From contig CAMWTI010000007.1 in assembly GCA_947177135.1 (NCBI GenBank), positions 1 through 45,009 of the forward strand: 45,009 nucleotides of DNA, given 5' to 3'. This stretch comes from an uncultured Porphyromonadaceae bacterium (GTDB lineage: Bacteria; Bacteroidota; Bacteroidia; Bacteroidales; Muribaculaceae). Positions 7,101 through 34,529 of the stretch are shown piece after piece; position 1 is the first letter of the stretch, and each line of letters begins with the position of its first letter. A program made the translations under genes and the position numbers. The notes beneath the pieces are model-generated. The model saw only the letters and a list, made by a program, of their open reading frames with translations. It had not been told where the DNA came from and made no database searches.

Positions 7101-7505
7101 CGCCACTCCCTGAAGCTCCGTGTGTGGGATATTTCCGGCAATTACGCCGAACGCACCATTGAGTGCGTGGCCGAAGCGGGAATAGCACCCAAAATATTCG
7201 ACGTATACACAGACACGAACCCCGCATCTGTGTCCGCGTCATTCTATGTCACCCACAACAGGCCCGACGAGCGCCTGACGGTGGAGGTGACAGTCTACAA
7301 CCTGCTCGGACAGCCGGTGTGGAGCGCATCGGCCACAGGGCGCAGCGACATGCACACCTCCGCACCATTGCGCTGGGATCTCACCGACAATGCCGGACGC
7401 AGGGTCAACCGGGGAATCTATCTTTACAGAGCGACCGTAACCGAAGCCGACGGCAGCAGACACTCCACGGCCTCGCGGAAAATAGCAGTGACATCAGAAC
7501 CATGA
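4131..7505 (+). CDS. porU: Type IX secretion system sortase PorU (C25 gingipain-like)
   Basis: 1124 aa; signal peptide; C25-type YVGHGSPTALCGDN...CYAATCSFLKWD; C-terminal T9SS-type domain ending NRGIYLYRATVTEADG. Confidence 0.88.
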   Translation: MKKALHIIATMCLLAVLAWSAPEALAFAPEIYTQESVLASGRWVQISVGSTGPHRIPARKLAEWGFRNPQSVRVFGYGAATISDHLSAETYIDDLPPVPALYGSDGITFYAVGPVTTEISGTGDLVHNVNPYTTTGYYYLTEIDEALPDAHIIAQGGDPVDNSSASAEAMSLLLHEEDLVSPSNMGRLLVGEDFVYVRSQNFTFNMSDRVESTPVRLVCSFMAGAPSSSSIVLSANDTELPYTISDRIPAASGTEIYGALANTVKRFVPNGERLTINVTHQPTGVVNRANLDYLEVSYTRTLRAPAASDLLSFSTDNAETRIENGAGLIIWDVTDPLSVRSMSQSAGGAWRNRYAGQRLYVAFSPSATLPQPEYRGTVANQNLHATPTPDMVIITPSAYAEAAERLAKFHRENEVEPLTVEVLRLDKVLHEFGSGSFDPGALRRCLKMLYDRGPLRFALMMGKGTFDNRCVTSVGKAMRSPMPIWVSEASLTESSAYSTDDYLAYLEDNSGLRPSQDKLSIALGRIPCTTPAEAALAVDKIEQYHSRLPRSDWRNKVLILADDGNRGVHMTQSESLFKNAVKASGDKSLLFDKIYIDAYDWQNGSYPIARSEFYRRLNDGTMLWVYVGHGSPTALCGDNMVTYLDMSTQFFLRHWPFCYAATCSFLKWDTDITSAAEMLYFTSEGGIIGAVSALRPVYISYNGDFTAAFGTELATRNPDGLFPTMGEVYQRAKNRLTDDNRLRFVYMGDPALRTVLPSATVRLDSVNGIAVTPDAQVTLPARGRLTLSGTVLTPTGKIDTGFNGRISATLFDADRSVVSMGHGEDGEQVPFDVHGDMLLMAGGSVSEGEFSFSVQMPSDVADNFRPATLNLYAWSEQTDASGVCRDLYVYGYDAETPADDTAPVIHSMALNHESFSDGDRVNTAPMLLASISDDCGINLSGAGVGHQITVTVDGVTQYSGVSGYFTPDAEPVAGAMSGTIAYPVPEMAPGRHSLKLRVWDISGNYAERTIECVAEAGIAPKIFDVYTDTNPASVSASFYVTHNRPDERLTVEVTVYNLLGQPVWSASATGRSDMHTSAPLRWDLTDNAGRRVNRGIYLYRATVTEADGSRHSTASRKIAVTSEP

Positions 7506-25984: not shown

Positions 25985-26005
25985 GTTGTTTTGATTCGGG
26001 TGAAA

Positions 26006-26935
26006 TCAGAGGGCGAGGGCGCCGTTGGTCTTGCGCACTGCCTCGGCGCTCTTGGCGAAGAGAGCCTTTTCGTCGTCGTTGAGGTCGAATTCAACAACCT
26101 TCTCGATGCCGTTCTTGCCGAGAATACAGGGCACACCGATGCAGATGTCGCTCTGGCCGTATTCACCTTCGAGGTAGGCCGAGCAGGAGATCATGCGCTT
26201 GGTGTCGTGGAGCACTGCGTCAACCACCGATGCTGCGGCAGCGCCGGGAGCATACCATGCGCTGGTGCCGAGCAGACCGGTGAGGGTTGCGCCGCCAACC
26301 ATGGTGTCGGCAGCCACCTTGGCCAGAGTTTCGGCGGGCAGCAGGGTTGAAGCGGGGATGCCGCGGTGAGCAGCATAGCGGGTCAGAGGAATCATGGTTG
26401 TGTCGCCATGTCCGCCGATCACGATGCCTTCCACTTCAGCGGGGTTTGCGCCGAGAGCGATGCTGAGGAAATACTGGAAGCGAGCGCTGTCTAGAGCGCC
26501 GCCCATGCCGATGATGCGGTTTTTGGGCAGACCGGAGGTCTTGTGGATCAGATAGGTCATAGTGTCCATGGGGTTGGAAACGCAGACAATCACGGCGTTG
26601 GGGCTGTGGGCCAGAACCTGGTCGGTCACCGACTTGACGATGCCAGCGTTTACGCCGATCAGCTCTTCGCGGGTCATGCCGGGCTTGCGGGGAATACCGC
26701 TGGTGATCACAACGACATCGCTGCCTTCGGTTGCGGCATAGTCGTTGGTCACGCCTGTAGCACGGGTCTTCACGCCGAGAATGTTGGCGGTCTGCATGAT
26801 GTCCATCACTTTGCCTTCCGAGAGGCCCTGCTTGATGTCGATGAGCACTACTTCATCGGCAATGCCGGTGGTTATGAGGACGTTGGCGCAAGTAGCGCCG
26901 ACGTTTCCGGCTCCTACAACTGTTACTTTTGACAT
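26006..26935 (-). CDS. mdh: Malate dehydrogenase
   Basis: KVTVVGAGNVGATCANVLI, ITSGIPRKPGMTREELIGVN, VSNPMDTMTYL, VIGGHGDTTMIPLTRYA. Confidence 0.95.
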   Translation of the reverse strand: MSKVTVVGAGNVGATCANVLITTGIADEVVLIDIKQGLSEGKVMDIMQTANILGVKTRATGVTNDYAATEGSDVVVITSGIPRKPGMTREELIGVNAGIVKSVTDQVLAHSPNAVIVCVSNPMDTMTYLIHKTSGLPKNRIIGMGGALDSARFQYFLSIALGANPAEVEGIVIGGHGDTTMIPLTRYAAHRGIPASTLLPAETLAKVAADTMVGGATLTGLLGTSAWYAPGAAAASVVDAVLHDTKRMISCSAYLEGEYGQSDICIGVPCILGKNGIEKVVEFDLNDDEKALFAKSAEAVRKTNGALAL

Positions 26936-26965
26936 ATCTTGAAATTTAGTTTAGTTTCTGTCCAA

Positions 26966-26973
26966 CAAAGATA
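26966..26973 (-). promoter_or_regulatory. -7 promoter element (TATCTTTG on minus) for mdh
   Basis: CAAAGATA on plus = TATCTTTG on minus, 31 nt upstream of mdh start. Confidence 0.45.
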
Positions 26974-27013
26974 GTAAACAGCAATCGCATTTTGCCACGA
27001 ATTAACACAGATT

Positions 27014-27148
27014 AACTTAATGAAGCAGCTTTGCCGAAAGGCGTCGGCGCAGCGGTTCGTCGTAGAAGCGGAGCGAGAGCCAAGCCATGGCGATGATCAG
27101 GACGAAAAGGCCGATGCACACGGGCCATGCCTGGGCGAGGGTGACGCC
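27014..27148 (-). repeat. Partial copy (last 43 codons plus stop) of the acyltransferase gene; direct repeat copy A of 28495-28629
   Basis: 131/135 identical to 28495-28629; differences at 27044, 27110, 27119 and 27122, all third-codon-position synonymous. Confidence 0.95.
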
Positions 27149-27174
27149 ACACTCATGCATATAGCTATATAACT

Positions 27175-27398
27175 CTAGCAATAAAACACTCCATAAACCA
27201 GATCATTAGGTAAATATATATAAGTAATAGATCCAATTGTGTCGGTTGTAATTTTATTGCATTTTACATATAAAGTAAATACAACGTAAACTTCTATATC
27301 GTCTTTTTAGAGAAATAATCAATTAACAATTCTCGATATGTACATATTCCATTGTTTTCATTTGGAGTATATGCATCAATAAAAAACAATGTTATCAT
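27175..27398 (-). pseudogene. Frameshifted, truncated N-terminus of a glycosyltransferase-like gene (tentative)
   Basis: Minus strand 27398-27294: MITLFFIDAYTPNENNGICTYRELLIDYFSKKTI*, continued in another frame 27294-27175: EVYVVFTLYVKCNKITTDTIGSITYIYLPNDLVYGVFYC*; resembles the first Rossmann half of GT4-type enzymes. Confidence 0.45.
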
Positions 27399-27404
27399 TT
27401 ATAT

Positions 27405-28082
27405 TTAGTTGCGTATTCCTTCGTATTTTTCTCCTCCGACAACAGTAAACCAACGAGCGAAAGAAGTTTTACCCCAAAAATTAGCAAAGGCTTCACTCAT
27501 AAGTTGCGCGCCATGACGATAGCCGGCATTAATCATAGCTGTGCGCAATTCGCTAAAGGCTTTGTATCCAGATGGCTTATCGACAGTATTTGACCAATAG
27601 AATTGCCAAAACATAAGTTGATCTGGAGTTGATAGTGTAGAAACAAGACGCAGCATTGTATCGCCTCGAGATCCATTAACTGCGCGGTGCATAACATCAC
27701 GTAGCAATCCTGAAATCTCATCGTCCATTCTATATGTTGCTCCAACCGCAAGGTTTATCAAACGATCGCAATATGTTGAATCATCTATAAGATAAAGCTT
27801 GTCCTGTAATGCGTTCAGATGTGAGGCGACGTTTTGATTCAAATTCGATATTCCCTGTGGAATTATTTCAGCCTCATAGGCCGTAGAACAATAAGTATTA
27901 AAAAAACCAATCCAGTTATTAGGAAACGCATTAAGAAAACTTTTCTGCGCCTCATAACTATCAGGTGTCTCCAGCAACTTTTTGAAAGATATATTTAGTT
28001 GAACTGTATCGGCAATAACATATTGAGCATCTGCAAATTTAAAGATACTCAACATAATAACTGCAAAGATTAATTTTCGCAT
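27405..28082 (-). CDS. Secreted hypothetical protein (225 aa), no family recognised
   Basis: Start placed at MRKLIFAVIMLSIFKFADAQ (signal peptide); 10 nt after the 93-aa ORF; AT-rich. Confidence 0.7.
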   Translation of the reverse strand: MRKLIFAVIMLSIFKFADAQYVIADTVQLNISFKKLLETPDSYEAQKSFLNAFPNNWIGFFNTYCSTAYEAEIIPQGISNLNQNVASHLNALQDKLYLIDDSTYCDRLINLAVGATYRMDDEISGLLRDVMHRAVNGSRGDTMLRLVSTLSTPDQLMFWQFYWSNTVDKPSGYKAFSELRTAMINAGYRHGAQLMSEAFANFWGKTSFARWFTVVGGEKYEGIRN

Positions 28083-28092
28083 AATTAGACGT

Positions 28093-28374
28093 TTATGGCC
28101 GAATCGAGATCGTCGCGTACCCTGAGCCATTCCTATTCATGAATGACCTAAACTTGTTCATTTCAGATCCTGTATGCCCACCAGCTGGAATACTATACTC
28201 ATTAGTTGCAGAATTATATTCATAAATTTTAATGCGCTCATAATTAGGTCCCCCACTATTTACGCCAGAGCTCATAATACTTTCAACATCAACTGCAACG
28301 ACATCCTGATTAGATAAAGATTCGTATTCATCGTTTAATTCTGATAGCACTTGCCTTAAATTGGTTCTGTCCAT
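28093..28374 (-). CDS. Small hypothetical protein (93 aa), no family recognised
   Basis: Intact ORF MDRTNLRQVLSELNDEYESLSNQDVVAVDVESIMSSGVNSGGPN..., first gene of the AT-rich island. Confidence 0.6.
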   Translation of the reverse strand: MDRTNLRQVLSELNDEYESLSNQDVVAVDVESIMSSGVNSGGPNYERIKIYEYNSATNEYSIPAGGHTGSEMNKFRSFMNRNGSGYATISIRP

Positions 28375-28494
28375 AGTCTATGTTTAAATGTTTTTATTGC
28401 GAAATTACAATAAATAAGTAAATCCGAGCATATGTTCATGTTATTTTTTTTCAGCTGTATATTGTTGTTTCAATTAATTGGTAAATATGTTAAG

Positions 28495-28629
28495 AACTTA
28501 ATGAAGCAGCTTTGCCGAAAGGCGGCGGCGCAGCGGTTCGTCGTAGAAGCGGAGCGAGAGCCAAGCCATGGCGATGATCAGGACGAAAAGTCCGATGCAG
28601 ACTGGCCATGCCTGGGCGAGGGTGACGCC
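28495..28629 (-). repeat. Direct repeat copy B (genuine 3' end of the acyltransferase gene)
   Basis: See 27014-27148; offset exactly 1481 bp. Confidence 0.95.
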
Positions 28630-29628
28630 GTTGGTCCACACCCAGGCATAGAACAGATACATGACCGGATAGTGGATAATGTAGACCGGATATGAGAGGC
28701 GGCCAAGGAATTCGCAGAGTCCGGTCGAGAGGCGGTCGGTGGTGAATCCGCAGGCGCCGATATAGACGATGGCGGGGAAGAGCAGGAAGGTGCAGGCAAG
28801 GTCGTAGGCGGCATTGGGCAGTGCGGGCTGGCCGTCAGCCGCGCCGACATAGGGGCAGGCGAGGGCCGCGGCTATGAGCGCCGAGCAGATCCAGAAGGCG
28901 CCGCGGATGCGCCGCGCCCTGAATGTGCGGCAGAGCAGTAGTCCTGCCGAAAACGAGAAGCTGAGACGGAAGAAGCCGCCGAGGAAACCCAGTCCGCCGG
29001 CCGACCATCCGAAGCCGATGTGGAAGGCGCCGGAGCTGTTGCCCAGAGCAAGGGCGGAAAGTCCGATGGCCGACAGGCCGACAACCCAGCGGAGGGCGCG
29101 CACCGATAGGCGGTGGAGCCAGACGGCATAGAGAATGCTGCCTATATATTCAAAGAACAGCGACCATGAAGGACCGTTGAGCGGAAACATCTCGCCGTTG
29201 CCGCGCACTTCGGCGCCCATGCCTGGCAGCACCGGAATCAGCAGCATGCCGAGCAGCAGGGCCACCAGGAGCCAATGAAGCGGAACGGGGGTGCCGTCCC
29301 ACTGCACGCCGCCCTGGATCAGATAGGCCACGGCGCCGAGCGCCACGCTGAGTATGACCATCGGGTGGAGGCGGATCACGCGGCGCAGCATGAAGCGGGA
29401 GGCGGTCATGTCTTTGCGCCAGCGGTCGTCGTAGGCATAACCGAGAACGAAGCCGGAGAGCACGAAAAAGAAGTCGACGGCAAGATAACCATGGTTCAGC
29501 ATCTGGTCGACGGGAGAATTGGCGAATCCTTCGCCGAAATGGTAGAAGATCACGAGAATGGCCGCGACTCCGCGCAGGCCGTCGAGCAGGTCATATCGCG
29601 GCCTGCTCTGGAGGTTATGATTGTCCAT
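28498..29628 (-). CDS. Acyltransferase family 3 (OafA/YrhL-like) membrane protein
   Basis: YDLLDGLRGVAAILVIFYHF, GYLAVDFFFVLSGFVLGYAYDDR, polytopic. Confidence 0.92.
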   Translation of the reverse strand: MDNHNLQSRPRYDLLDGLRGVAAILVIFYHFGEGFANSPVDQMLNHGYLAVDFFFVLSGFVLGYAYDDRWRKDMTASRFMLRRVIRLHPMVILSVALGAVAYLIQGGVQWDGTPVPLHWLLVALLLGMLLIPVLPGMGAEVRGNGEMFPLNGPSWSLFFEYIGSILYAVWLHRLSVRALRWVVGLSAIGLSALALGNSSGAFHIGFGWSAGGLGFLGGFFRLSFSFSAGLLLCRTFRARRIRGAFWICSALIAAALACPYVGAADGQPALPNAAYDLACTFLLFPAIVYIGACGFTTDRLSTGLCEFLGRLSYPVYIIHYPVMYLFYAWVWTNGVTLAQAWPVCIGLFVLIIAMAWLSLRFYDEPLRRRLSAKLLH

Positions 29629-29659
29629 AGGGCTGAGAAATAGATTTTGTTTGGCGTTG

Positions 29660-29667
29660 CAAAGTTA
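29660..29667 (-). promoter_or_regulatory. -7 promoter element TAACTTTG (minus) for the acyltransferase
   Basis: CAAAGTTA on plus, 32 nt upstream of start. Confidence 0.5.
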
Positions 29668-29707
29668 CGCCTTAAGCGGTTGTTTTCTTTTGCCCTATGT
29701 CAAAAAA

Positions 29708-30313
29708 TCATTTGGCGCGGATGCGGCTGAGGGTGGATGAAGTGATGCCGAGGTAGGAGGCGATGTCGGTGAGGCGCGCGCGGCGGCACACTGAGGGAAA
29801 CTGTGCGGCAAAGGCTTCGTAGCGTTCGCGGGCGGGCAGTGTGAGCTGCTCTTTGTGGCTGCGGTGGATGCGCCGGTATTCGTTCTGGTGGATCACGCGC
29901 ATCCAGTTGGTCAGTTCGAGGTTGCCGCATGTGAGGCGGCGTAGGTCGTCGACGGTGATGGCGAAAGCTTCGACCGGCTCGACTGTCTCGACGTATTCCT
30001 GGCTGGCCAGTCCGTAATACAGTTCGTCCATGCTGAACACCAGGCCGCCTTCGGTGGAAAAAGATGTCGTGACCTCCTGCCCGTCGACGATCCAGTAGCT
30101 TCGGGTCATTCCACGGTTCAGGAAATAGGCTTTTCCGAGCGCTGCTCCTTCTCTGATCAGAAGGTGTCGTTTCCTGAATCGGCATGGGGCCAGACATGCG
30201 CGCAGTTCGGCCAGAGCGCTGTCGGACACAGGCCATGCCTGCCGCATTCCTACGGCGACTTCGGCGAAGTCTTCGGCCGACACTGTTGTGGTCGGAAGGG
30301 CCGACGATGTCAT
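29708..30313 (-). CDS. Crp/Fnr family transcriptional regulator / cyclic-nucleotide-binding-domain protein
   Basis: LIREGAALGKAYFLNRGMTRSYWIVDGQEVTTSF (cNMP fold), C-terminal HTH RARLTDIASYLGITSSTLSRIRAK; start at MTSSALP overlapping the upstream gene by ATGA. Confidence 0.85.
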   Translation of the reverse strand: MTSSALPTTTVSAEDFAEVAVGMRQAWPVSDSALAELRACLAPCRFRKRHLLIREGAALGKAYFLNRGMTRSYWIVDGQEVTTSFSTEGGLVFSMDELYYGLASQEYVETVEPVEAFAITVDDLRRLTCGNLELTNWMRVIHQNEYRRIHRSHKEQLTLPARERYEAFAAQFPSVCRRARLTDIASYLGITSSTLSRIRAK

Positions 30314-30900
30314 AAGAGGCTCAGCAGCATCTGGAAAGGCCAGAGCACCAGTCCGAGGGTGAAGGCGATGATGAAGCACCATGCGGCGCGTTCGGAAGCC
30401 TGGCGTGCGCCTTCGATGTCGCCGCGCTCATATTTGCGGCTGACCTGTGACGAGAAGATCACTCCGGCAATGCCCACCGGGATGCAGCAGCAGATGGTGA
30501 CGAGCACGTTCCAGGGCAGATATGTCGGCGGCATCGGCTCATAGACCGGCTGTGGGCCGTGGCTGGCAGAGGAGGCTCCCCATGAGGCAGTGGCGGCGGC
30601 TTGAGGCTGTTGCCAGAGAGTCTGCTGCCGGGGCTGTTCGGGTGCGGCGGCGGTTGCCGAGGCGGGGTCGTTGACGGTGGCGTCGGTCTCTTCGTCTGCC
30701 AGGGTGGCGGGTTCTTCGGTCACTCCCAGCCGGCCGGCAAGTTCGGGCAGCTGAGGCAGCGGCATCCATTCCGGCAAGCCCTTGCGCCAGACCCTGAGCG
30801 TTGGCGAGGCCACACCCAGGGCGGCGATTTCGTCGGGCGTGAACGGGCCGCGCGGCTGCCCGTTCACAATGATCCAGTATATTTTGTCGTTTGTGCCCAT
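30310..30900 (-). CDS. GYF_2-domain plus CD225/dispanin-like membrane protein
   Basis: IYWIIVNGQPRGPFTPDEIAALGVASPTLRVWRKGLPEW (GYF_2) and PPTYLPWNVLVTICCCIPVGIAGVIFSSQVSRKYERGDIEGARQASERAAWC (CD225-like). Confidence 0.82.
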   Translation of the reverse strand: MGTNDKIYWIIVNGQPRGPFTPDEIAALGVASPTLRVWRKGLPEWMPLPQLPELAGRLGVTEEPATLADEETDATVNDPASATAAAPEQPRQQTLWQQPQAAATASWGASSASHGPQPVYEPMPPTYLPWNVLVTICCCIPVGIAGVIFSSQVSRKYERGDIEGARQASERAAWCFIIAFTLGLVLWPFQMLLSLL

Positions 30901-31840: not shown

Positions 31841-32983
31841 TTAACCTCTGTCTGTCGTTGATCCGGAGCTGTCGGGCAGTCCGGTGACCTGTTGCACCGT
31901 GTCGCGCGACGCTTTGCGCAGTATGTAGCGCTCATAGTAGCTCAGCAACAAGGTTGTAAGCGGCAGGGCTATGATCATTCCGAGTAATCCGAGCAGGGTG
32001 CCCCAGACCGAGAGAGAGAGCAGTATGATGGCAGGATTCAGTCCCATTGCCTTGCCCATTATTTTCGGCGTAAGAAACAGATCCTGGATTCCCTGCACCA
32101 CGCAGTAGACGAGCATGGCTTCGCCGAATATCACCCAGAACGAGGCTCCGGAATCGACTGCATAGACCAGACAGAGCATTCCGGTCAAGGGAATGGAGAC
32201 AAGCTGGAGATAAGGAACCATGTTGAGCAGGCCGATGAAGAGCCCGAGCACCACGGCCAGCGGCAGCCCCATTATCAGGAATCCGATGCTGAACAGCACT
32301 CCGACGCAGAAGGCCACCAGGGCCTGTCCGCGGAAATAATGGTTCATGCTCTCCTTGATGTCGCGGGCCACTGTGAACGCGCGGTGGCGGTATCTTGGCG
32401 GCACCATCGCCCTGATGCCGGCGCCGAGCCGGTCGTAGTCGATCATAATGAACACCATGTAGAGCAGCGAGAGCATCCAGTTGAAAACGCTCAGCAGGAT
32501 GTCGAATCCGCCCTGCACCACCCGCATTGCCCCGGAGCCGATCGAGAGCCAGTCGGCTCCTGAGAGCATGGCCGCAATGTGGTTGAAGTCAATGTTTTCT
32601 TTGAGGAACGTGTTGAGCCACTCCGGGATGAAGTCGACCTGCCGGTCGGAGTTGACATACAGGCTGATCATCGCTCCCACCTGCTTCATCTCGCCGATTA
32701 TCGAGGGCATGAACAGGGAGATGAGCAGCGAGACGACTGCCACTGCCGCAATCAGGGTGATCAGCACCGCCAGAGTGCGTCCGCGCAGACGGAATATCCG
32801 GCGCACATATTGCACGAACGGTTCGAGCATATAGGCGGCAAGAGCCGCCACTCCGAACGGAAGCAGCACCGAGCGGAGCACGTAGACCAGGGTCACGACG
32901 ATCGCCACTGTCAGGAACGACAGCGACAGACGCACCACGCGGTCAAAGGTGAATGGCTGTCGGGGAGTTGAAGAGGTCATCAT
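31841..32983 (-). CDS. AI-2E family transporter (PerM/YdiK-like)
   Basis: Polytopic; FSIGFLIMGLPLAVVLGLFIGLLNMVPYLQLVSIPL, GLNPAIILLSLSVWGTLLGLLGMIIALPL. Confidence 0.88.
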   Translation of the reverse strand: MMTSSTPRQPFTFDRVVRLSLSFLTVAIVVTLVYVLRSVLLPFGVAALAAYMLEPFVQYVRRIFRLRGRTLAVLITLIAAVAVVSLLISLFMPSIIGEMKQVGAMISLYVNSDRQVDFIPEWLNTFLKENIDFNHIAAMLSGADWLSIGSGAMRVVQGGFDILLSVFNWMLSLLYMVFIMIDYDRLGAGIRAMVPPRYRHRAFTVARDIKESMNHYFRGQALVAFCVGVLFSIGFLIMGLPLAVVLGLFIGLLNMVPYLQLVSIPLTGMLCLVYAVDSGASFWVIFGEAMLVYCVVQGIQDLFLTPKIMGKAMGLNPAIILLSLSVWGTLLGLLGMIIALPLTTLLLSYYERYILRKASRDTVQQVTGLPDSSGSTTDRG

Positions 32984-33089
32984 AATCTGAAAAAATAACA
33001 ATAATGTGGCGGAAATTGTGCGAAAATGCGTAATTTTGCCACACGATTCATTTCGCACTGCAAAGAAACCAAAAAAACTTCAAATAACG

Positions 33090-34529
33090 ATGCAAAATTC
33101 CACTAAAACTACACCTCGTGTGACTTATCTCAACGATAAGGCATGGGCAAGATGGACGGCGCTGATACTTGTGGCGCTGATGATGTTTTTCGCTTATATG
33201 TTTGTCGACGTGATCTCGCCGATACAGACATTGATCCAGACTCAGCTTGACTGGTCGTCGGAGGCTTATGGCTATTACGGCGGCTCGGAATATATTCTCA
33301 ATATGTTCGGCTTCCTGATCCTGGCCGGCATAATTCTTGACAAGACCGGCGTCCGCTTCACCGGCACTCTCTCGGCTTCGGTGATGCTGCTCGGCGCCTG
33401 CATCAAACTCTATGCCGTCAGCTCCCTGTTCGCCGGATCGGGCCTGGACCACTGGCTCAGCTCGTGGTGGACTGCCATGCCCGGCAGCGCTAAGCTGGCA
33501 TCGCTCGGTTTCATGATTTTCGGCTGTGGCTGCGAAATGGCCGGTATCACGGTCAGCAAAGCCATTGCCAAGTGGTTTGACGGCAAGGAGATGGCGCTGG
33601 CCATGGGCCTGGAAATGGCGATTGCCCGCGTGGGCGTGTTTGCTATTTTCAGCATCTCTCCGCGTCTGGCCAACTGGATCAGCGGCGACCCCACCGTGGT
33701 GATTCCTGTGGCCTTCTGCACGGTGTTGCTGCTTATCGGCCTGATCTGCTATATTGTCTTTGACTTTTTCGATGCCAGACTCGACCGCGAGATGGGCAAG
33801 AATTCAACCGATGCCGATCCGGAAGAGGAGTTCAAGTTCTCTGACGTGAAGACCATTCTGTCGAGCCGTCTGTTCTGGGTTGTGGCCATGCTCTGCGTGC
33901 TCTACTATTCGGCCATCTTCCCGTTCCAGAAATATGCGGCCAACATGCTTCAGTGCAATCTCGGCATCTCTGAAACTCAGGCAGCCGACATATTCCGCTG
34001 GTTCCCGATCGGCGCCGCCGCTCTGACTCCGTTCCTGGGCGCGTTTCTTGACCACAAGGGCAAAGGTGCGACCATGCTCATTCTCGGTGCATTGCTGATG
34101 ATCTGCTGCCATCTGGTGTTTGCTCTTGTGCTGCCTCAGATGCAATATACATGGCTCGCTTTCTCGGCCATCATTCTTCTGGGCGTGTCTTTCTCGCTGG
34201 TTCCCGCCGCGCTGTGGCCTTCGGTCCCGAAGATCATGGACAAGCGTTTTCTCGGATCGGCCTATTCGCTGATATTCTGGGTTCAGAACATCGGCCTGGC
34301 TCTGTTTCCGATGCTCATTGGCGCGGTGCTCCAGAACTGCAACGAGGGAATCGACAATCCGCTTGATTATGACTATACGGTGCCGATGCTGCTGTTTGCC
34401 TCGCTCGGCGTGCTGGCTCTGATTTTCGGCATATACCTTAAATATCTCGACGGCAAGCATCACTATGGACTGGAGCAGCCCAACATCAAGGCCGACGAGA
34501 GCAAGGAGGAGATGCCCGTTGAGGTGTAA
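33090..34529 (+). CDS. MFS transporter
   Basis: 12-TM-like; WTALILVALMMFFAYMFVDVISPIQTLIQTQLDWSSEAYGYYGG...; start at MQNSTKTTPRV. Confidence 0.85.
   Translation: MQNSTKTTPRVTYLNDKAWARWTALILVALMMFFAYMFVDVISPIQTLIQTQLDWSSEAYGYYGGSEYILNMFGFLILAGIILDKTGVRFTGTLSASVMLLGACIKLYAVSSLFAGSGLDHWLSSWWTAMPGSAKLASLGFMIFGCGCEMAGITVSKAIAKWFDGKEMALAMGLEMAIARVGVFAIFSISPRLANWISGDPTVVIPVAFCTVLLLIGLICYIVFDFFDARLDREMGKNSTDADPEEEFKFSDVKTILSSRLFWVVAMLCVLYYSAIFPFQKYAANMLQCNLGISETQAADIFRWFPIGAAALTPFLGAFLDHKGKGATMLILGALLMICCHLVFALVLPQMQYTWLAFSAIILLGVSFSLVPAALWPSVPKIMDKRFLGSAYSLIFWVQNIGLALFPMLIGAVLQNCNEGIDNPLDYDYTVPMLLFASLGVLALIFGIYLKYLDGKHHYGLEQPNIKADESKEEMPVEV

Follow-up and report, generated by a model that had tools for sequence, protein, structure and literature searches.

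In the window analysed here, a whole contig of 45,009 bp from the 2.2-Mb draft genome, in 144 contigs, of a gut Muribaculaceae bacterium, we found a small AT-rich stretch with two genes lying between two copies of the 3′ end of an acyltransferase gene, next to mdh. A sister genome has the same locus with a single gene end and no insert. The empty and filled sites show a clean insertion, and the gene-end copy on the mdh side resembles the empty site. From this pair we infer a single crossover, and our preferred reading, which we hold at a probability of roughly 60%, is that a small foreign two-gene islet inserted by one crossover and carried a replacement end for the acyltransferase gene.

Table 1. 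Features of the acyltransferase–mdh interval (positions in the window).
Feature	Positions	Strand	Remarks
Direct repeat D1	27014-27148 / 28495-28629		135 nt, spacing 1481, E = 1e-59
Intact acyltransferase	28498..29628	-	376 aa; PF01757 Acyl_transf_3; last 43 codons are copy B
Copy B, putative replacement 3′ end of the intact acyltransferase	28495..28629	-	private changes at 28591, 28600 and 28603
Copy A, apparent native acyltransferase 3′ end, displaced	27014..27148	-	collinear with the empty site on the mdh side; private change at 27044
Candidate crossover stretch, copy A side	27123..27148		26 bp identical in copy A, copy B and the empty site
Candidate crossover stretch, copy B side	28604..28629		
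9-bp inverted repeat	28608..28649		ATGCCTGGG (28608-28616) / CCCAGGCAT (28641-28649); straddles the inner junction
Insert end	27149..27161		ACACTCATGCATA; 11/13 identical to host ACACCCAGGCATA, which starts 8 bp past the junction
AT-rich insert	27149..28494		1,346 bp; GC 0.347; absent from the sister genome
Insert gene 1	28093..28374	-	93-aa protein; no relatives in the searches given in the text
Insert gene 2	27405..28082	-	225-aa protein; signal-peptide-like start MRKLIFAVIMLSIFKFADA (read by eye); no relatives in the searches given in the text
Promoter-like DNA of the insert genes	28375..28418	-	TAATTTCG; near the Bacteroidetes -7 box TAnnTTTG

A duplicated gene end flanks the insert

The two copies of the repeat are identical at 131 of 135 positions (97%), with a longest exact match of 65 bp, and no other long direct repeat occurs in the window. 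Each takes in the last 43 acyltransferase codons with their stop and the following 3 bp; copy A translates as GVTLAQAWPVCIGLFVLIIAMAWLSLRFYDEPLRRRLSAKLLH followed by the stop. All four mismatches between copy A and copy B (27044/28525, 27110/28591, 27119/28600 and 27122/28603) fall on third codon positions and are synonymous. Recomputation thus confirmed the preliminary description of this DNA, which had reported a 131/135 repeat starting 3 bp past the stop codon with four of four differences synonymous. It had also called the stretch between the copies AT-rich and compositionally foreign, in agreement with the low GC content of the insert against about 0.57 in the surrounding DNA.

Two further observations concern the gene itself. 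A Crp-like regulator gene lies directly upstream of the acyltransferase (the pair spans 28498-30382), and the two are kept together in many Bacteroidales. An upstream ATG opens a frame that runs into copy A (27014-27163), giving a possible short membrane peptide that begins MHECGVTLAQAW; this frame is probably a product of chance.

A sister genome carries the empty site

The closest relatives in GTDB were Muribaculaceae and Bacteroidales assemblies. In the sister genome (G002), whose acyltransferase is 98% identical to that of the window, mdh adjoins the acyltransferase, the gene end is present once and the insert is missing. The preliminary description had proposed looking for such empty sites in relatives, and this one has the expected single copy and no island. 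The two genomes are collinear over 42 kb with the insert as the only large indel, and the filled site is longer than the empty one by 1,481 bp, with 0 host bases missing at either end. Eight further genomes of the genus have a different gene beside mdh, which we take from its sequence to be a riboflavin synthase, in place of the acyltransferase. The mdh–acyltransferase neighbourhood is therefore common to two genomes, on which the site comparison rests, and the filled site is known from one of them, the draft in 144 contigs. The alternative cargo that the earlier description suggested seeking at this site was not found in these two genomes.

This clean pair of empty and filled sites allows the gene ends to be assigned as native or incoming. 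At 27110, 27119 and 27122, copy A has the bases of the empty site (G, C and G), unlike copy B; at 27044 it is copy A that departs from the other two, copy B and the sister genome both having G. A fifth position, 27026/28507, has C in both copies and T in the sister genome. Copy A looks like the native gene end, now displaced, because it equals the empty site at the three positions and joins the mdh side. The three private changes of copy B are synonymous and sit within 13 bp, or five codons, a clustering with P = 0.018, and we consider copy B to be probably of foreign origin.

These assignments change how the synonymous differences are read. The preliminary description had argued that the two copies came to differ while both belonged to functional genes, which does not hold up: only the change at 27044 is private to the displaced copy, and the other three are private to copy B. 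The argument loses its force because purifying selection on the intact gene accounts for those three, and the lone synonymous change in copy A is uninformative, since one would arise by chance in a dead copy with a probability of about 0.26. The suggestion of an allele imported from another strain is likely for copy B in view of its clustered changes. Copy A is unlikely to be what is left of a second full-length acyltransferase, as it joins the mdh side directly and is collinear there as in the empty site.

Identity to the sister genome is uneven along the window, at about 98% over 26.0-30.2 kb and about 99.9% over 32.5-34.0 kb, against about 93% overall. These blocks of raised identity (26000-30200 and 32500-34000) suggest recent gene exchange between the two lineages, and given this mosaic, homologous exchange appears to be frequent in the neighbourhood of the insert.

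The junction and searches for an integration system

A single crossover, if one took place, must map between 27122 and 27148, in the inner 26 bp of the repeat; it is placed to the right of 27122 because at 27110, 27119 and 27122 the empty-site bases are found in copy A and not in copy B. The 9-bp inverted repeat straddling the inner junction is the only such pair (spacer 4-34) in the acyltransferase gene, and 2.2% of gene positions lie inside a spacer of this kind. The 11/13 match between the insert end and the host arm would be expected by chance in about 1-3% of cases and is not independent of the inverted repeat. The insert-end version of the arm lies 8 bp nearer the junction than the host version, and this unequal spacing argues against a standard recombinase core made up of the two arms.

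The insert contains only its two cargo ORFs, neither of which encodes an integrase or recombinase, so that the earlier remark that no integrase is visible was borne out. Elsewhere in the genome we found four tyrosine recombinase matches, all on other contigs. No inverted repeat was reported between the insert ends, and no tRNA or RNA family was detected at the site. We found no comparable duplicated 3′ end at 79 other acyltransferase loci (several of which end early at contig ends), no second islet with the same layout in a 397-kb sample of the same genome, no attachment-site patterns in IMG/VR and, by DNA comparison, no such attachment site in phages and plasmids. A transposon or insertion sequence was rejected, as the repeat is 135 bp long and imperfect and a transposase is absent. 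At one acyltransferase locus (L094, about 7225-7253), a 29-bp exact repeat of the gene end lies 70 bp past the stop codon.

A probable single-crossover insertion and the alternatives

In the reading that we prefer, the incoming DNA molecule would have consisted of the cargo and its own copy of the acyltransferase's last 43 codons, and one crossover with the chromosome would have occurred inside the acyltransferase 3′ end, in the candidate stretch. Copy B, the incoming end, would then complete the gene with its reading frame intact, and copy A, the native end, would be left 1.48 kb further downstream, adjoining mdh. The repeat runs from the crossover stretch to 3 bp past the stop codon, which is exactly what rebuilding the gene needs. 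The changes in copy B could be later than the insertion. The preliminary description had likened the layout to an island entering at a gene's 3′ end with a replacement end, a view that the empty site and its A-like allele strengthen. We favour a single crossover with a replacement end, and leave the enzyme at about even odds between a site-specific recombinase, either provided in trans or lost afterwards, and recombination of RecA type through the gene end, because an island-like anatomy stands against the lack of an integrase, the lack of reuse of the site and the local homologous exchange.

The duplication could instead have come from one-sided homologous import (homology-facilitated illegitimate recombination), in which linear DNA from a donor strain, with its acyltransferase followed by the cargo, paired through the gene and was joined illegitimately at its far end within the recipient's gene end. 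Such an event needs no integrase, suits the recombination mosaic around the insert and could account for the 11/13 match to host DNA, yet that match is not at the join itself. Homology-facilitated illegitimate joins usually delete host DNA, whereas here it was duplicated, and the donor-like changes end at 28603, with the next 183 bp the same as in the sister genome. We consider this route unlikely, and the same holds, to a similar degree, for a simple duplication of the recipient's own gene end at insertion, with every difference between the copies arising afterwards (three in the intact gene, one in the displaced copy). A one-to-three split of the changes does not conflict with equal rates, both copies have C at 27026/28507 where the sister genome has T, and the 3% difference between the copies is close to the local distance to the sister genome. 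The clustering of the three copy B changes argues against it, as does the length of the repeat: transposon target duplications are far shorter than 135 bp.

Two further alternatives are less probable still. The insert might be ancestral and have been lost from the sister genome by recombination between the repeats, and the outgroup is thin, only two species having the mdh–acyltransferase neighbourhood. A crossover deletion, however, would join a left part with the bases of copy A to a right part with those of copy B, and the sister genome has the reverse, which makes this very improbable. Least probable of all is a metagenome assembly chimera of two strains. The draft is fragmented and a repeat could mislead an assembler, but the copies share no exact match longer than 65 bp, each junction is unique sequence and the flanks are collinear with the sister genome over 42 kb.

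The cargo genes

The two insert genes share an orientation and are separated by about 10 bp. The frame of gene 2 extends for 241 codons from its first ATG, compared with a longest frame of 130 codons in 500 shuffles; gene 1 is less certain as a gene because 2.6% of shuffles reach its 93 codons. The 225-aa protein is predicted to be exported, and it is all-helical in a low-confidence structure model (single-sequence models of the cargo proteins gave mean pLDDT values of 40 and 50). We found no relatives of either gene in 396 other genomes of the family, in IMG/VR or in plasmids, and none of gene 2 in one GTDB scan or in phages. The cargo proteins had no match in Pfam, NCBIfam, PADLOC, PHROGs or PDB sequences. 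Two other genomes of the family have DNA similar to the promoter-like stretch in front of unrelated genes. Five genomes gave short DNA matches to the insert, which consisted of AT-rich or promoter-like stretches and were rejected as cargo.

The cargo proteins are thus orphans that might merit an assay, and a predicted exported protein with a small partner might have a role in competition or defence. An acquired interbacterial defence island of Bacteroidales, which would combine immunity-gene homologues with a recombinase, was considered and rejected, as Pfam, NCBIfam, PADLOC and PHROGs gave no homologue that passed the threshold.

Comparison with known systems

The insertion brings an orphan two-gene unit into a core-gene neighbourhood with the reading frame unbroken and without an integrase of its own. 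Prophages e14 and phage 21 integrate in icd of Escherichia coli, where they supply a replacement 3′ end with mostly synonymous differences and displace the native end. On the reading preferred here, the islet shares with them a protein-gene target, a replacement 3′ end with synonymous differences and a displaced native end; they carry an integrase and phage genes, which the islet does not. Integrase-less genomic islets are exchanged when the core genes on either side recombine homologously. As in the present case, their cargo is small, foreign and of distinct composition and sits between conserved genes where recombination tracts occur, but a two-flank exchange alone creates no duplicated gene end, unlike what we see here.

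Islands in tRNA and tmRNA genes (Islander type) split their target gene and restore it, so that a regenerated gene and a displaced fragment mark their ends (PMC4383910). The islet likewise splits its target, carries the restoring sequence and has a regenerated gene and a displaced fragment at its two ends; it differs in its protein-coding target, its 135-bp repeat, its size of only 1.35 kb and its lack of an integrase. Among the features that identify islands of this type, we observed a single-copy empty site in a relative and a regenerated intact 376-aa ORF with a displaced native fragment, and observed neither an integrase gene in the element, where it usually lies near one end, nor recurrent use of the site by related elements (a comparable duplicated gene end at 0 of 79 other acyltransferase loci). 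We regard it as highly doubtful, if slightly less so than an ancestral insert, that the islet represents a class of minimal Bacteroidales elements not described before, which have no integrase, recognise protein-gene 3′ ends, are moved by a recombinase in trans and carry fast-evolving two-gene orphan cargo. The insertion is ordinary in kind and follows a known route for small genomic islands; apart from its orphan cargo, the event is ordinary genome plasticity.
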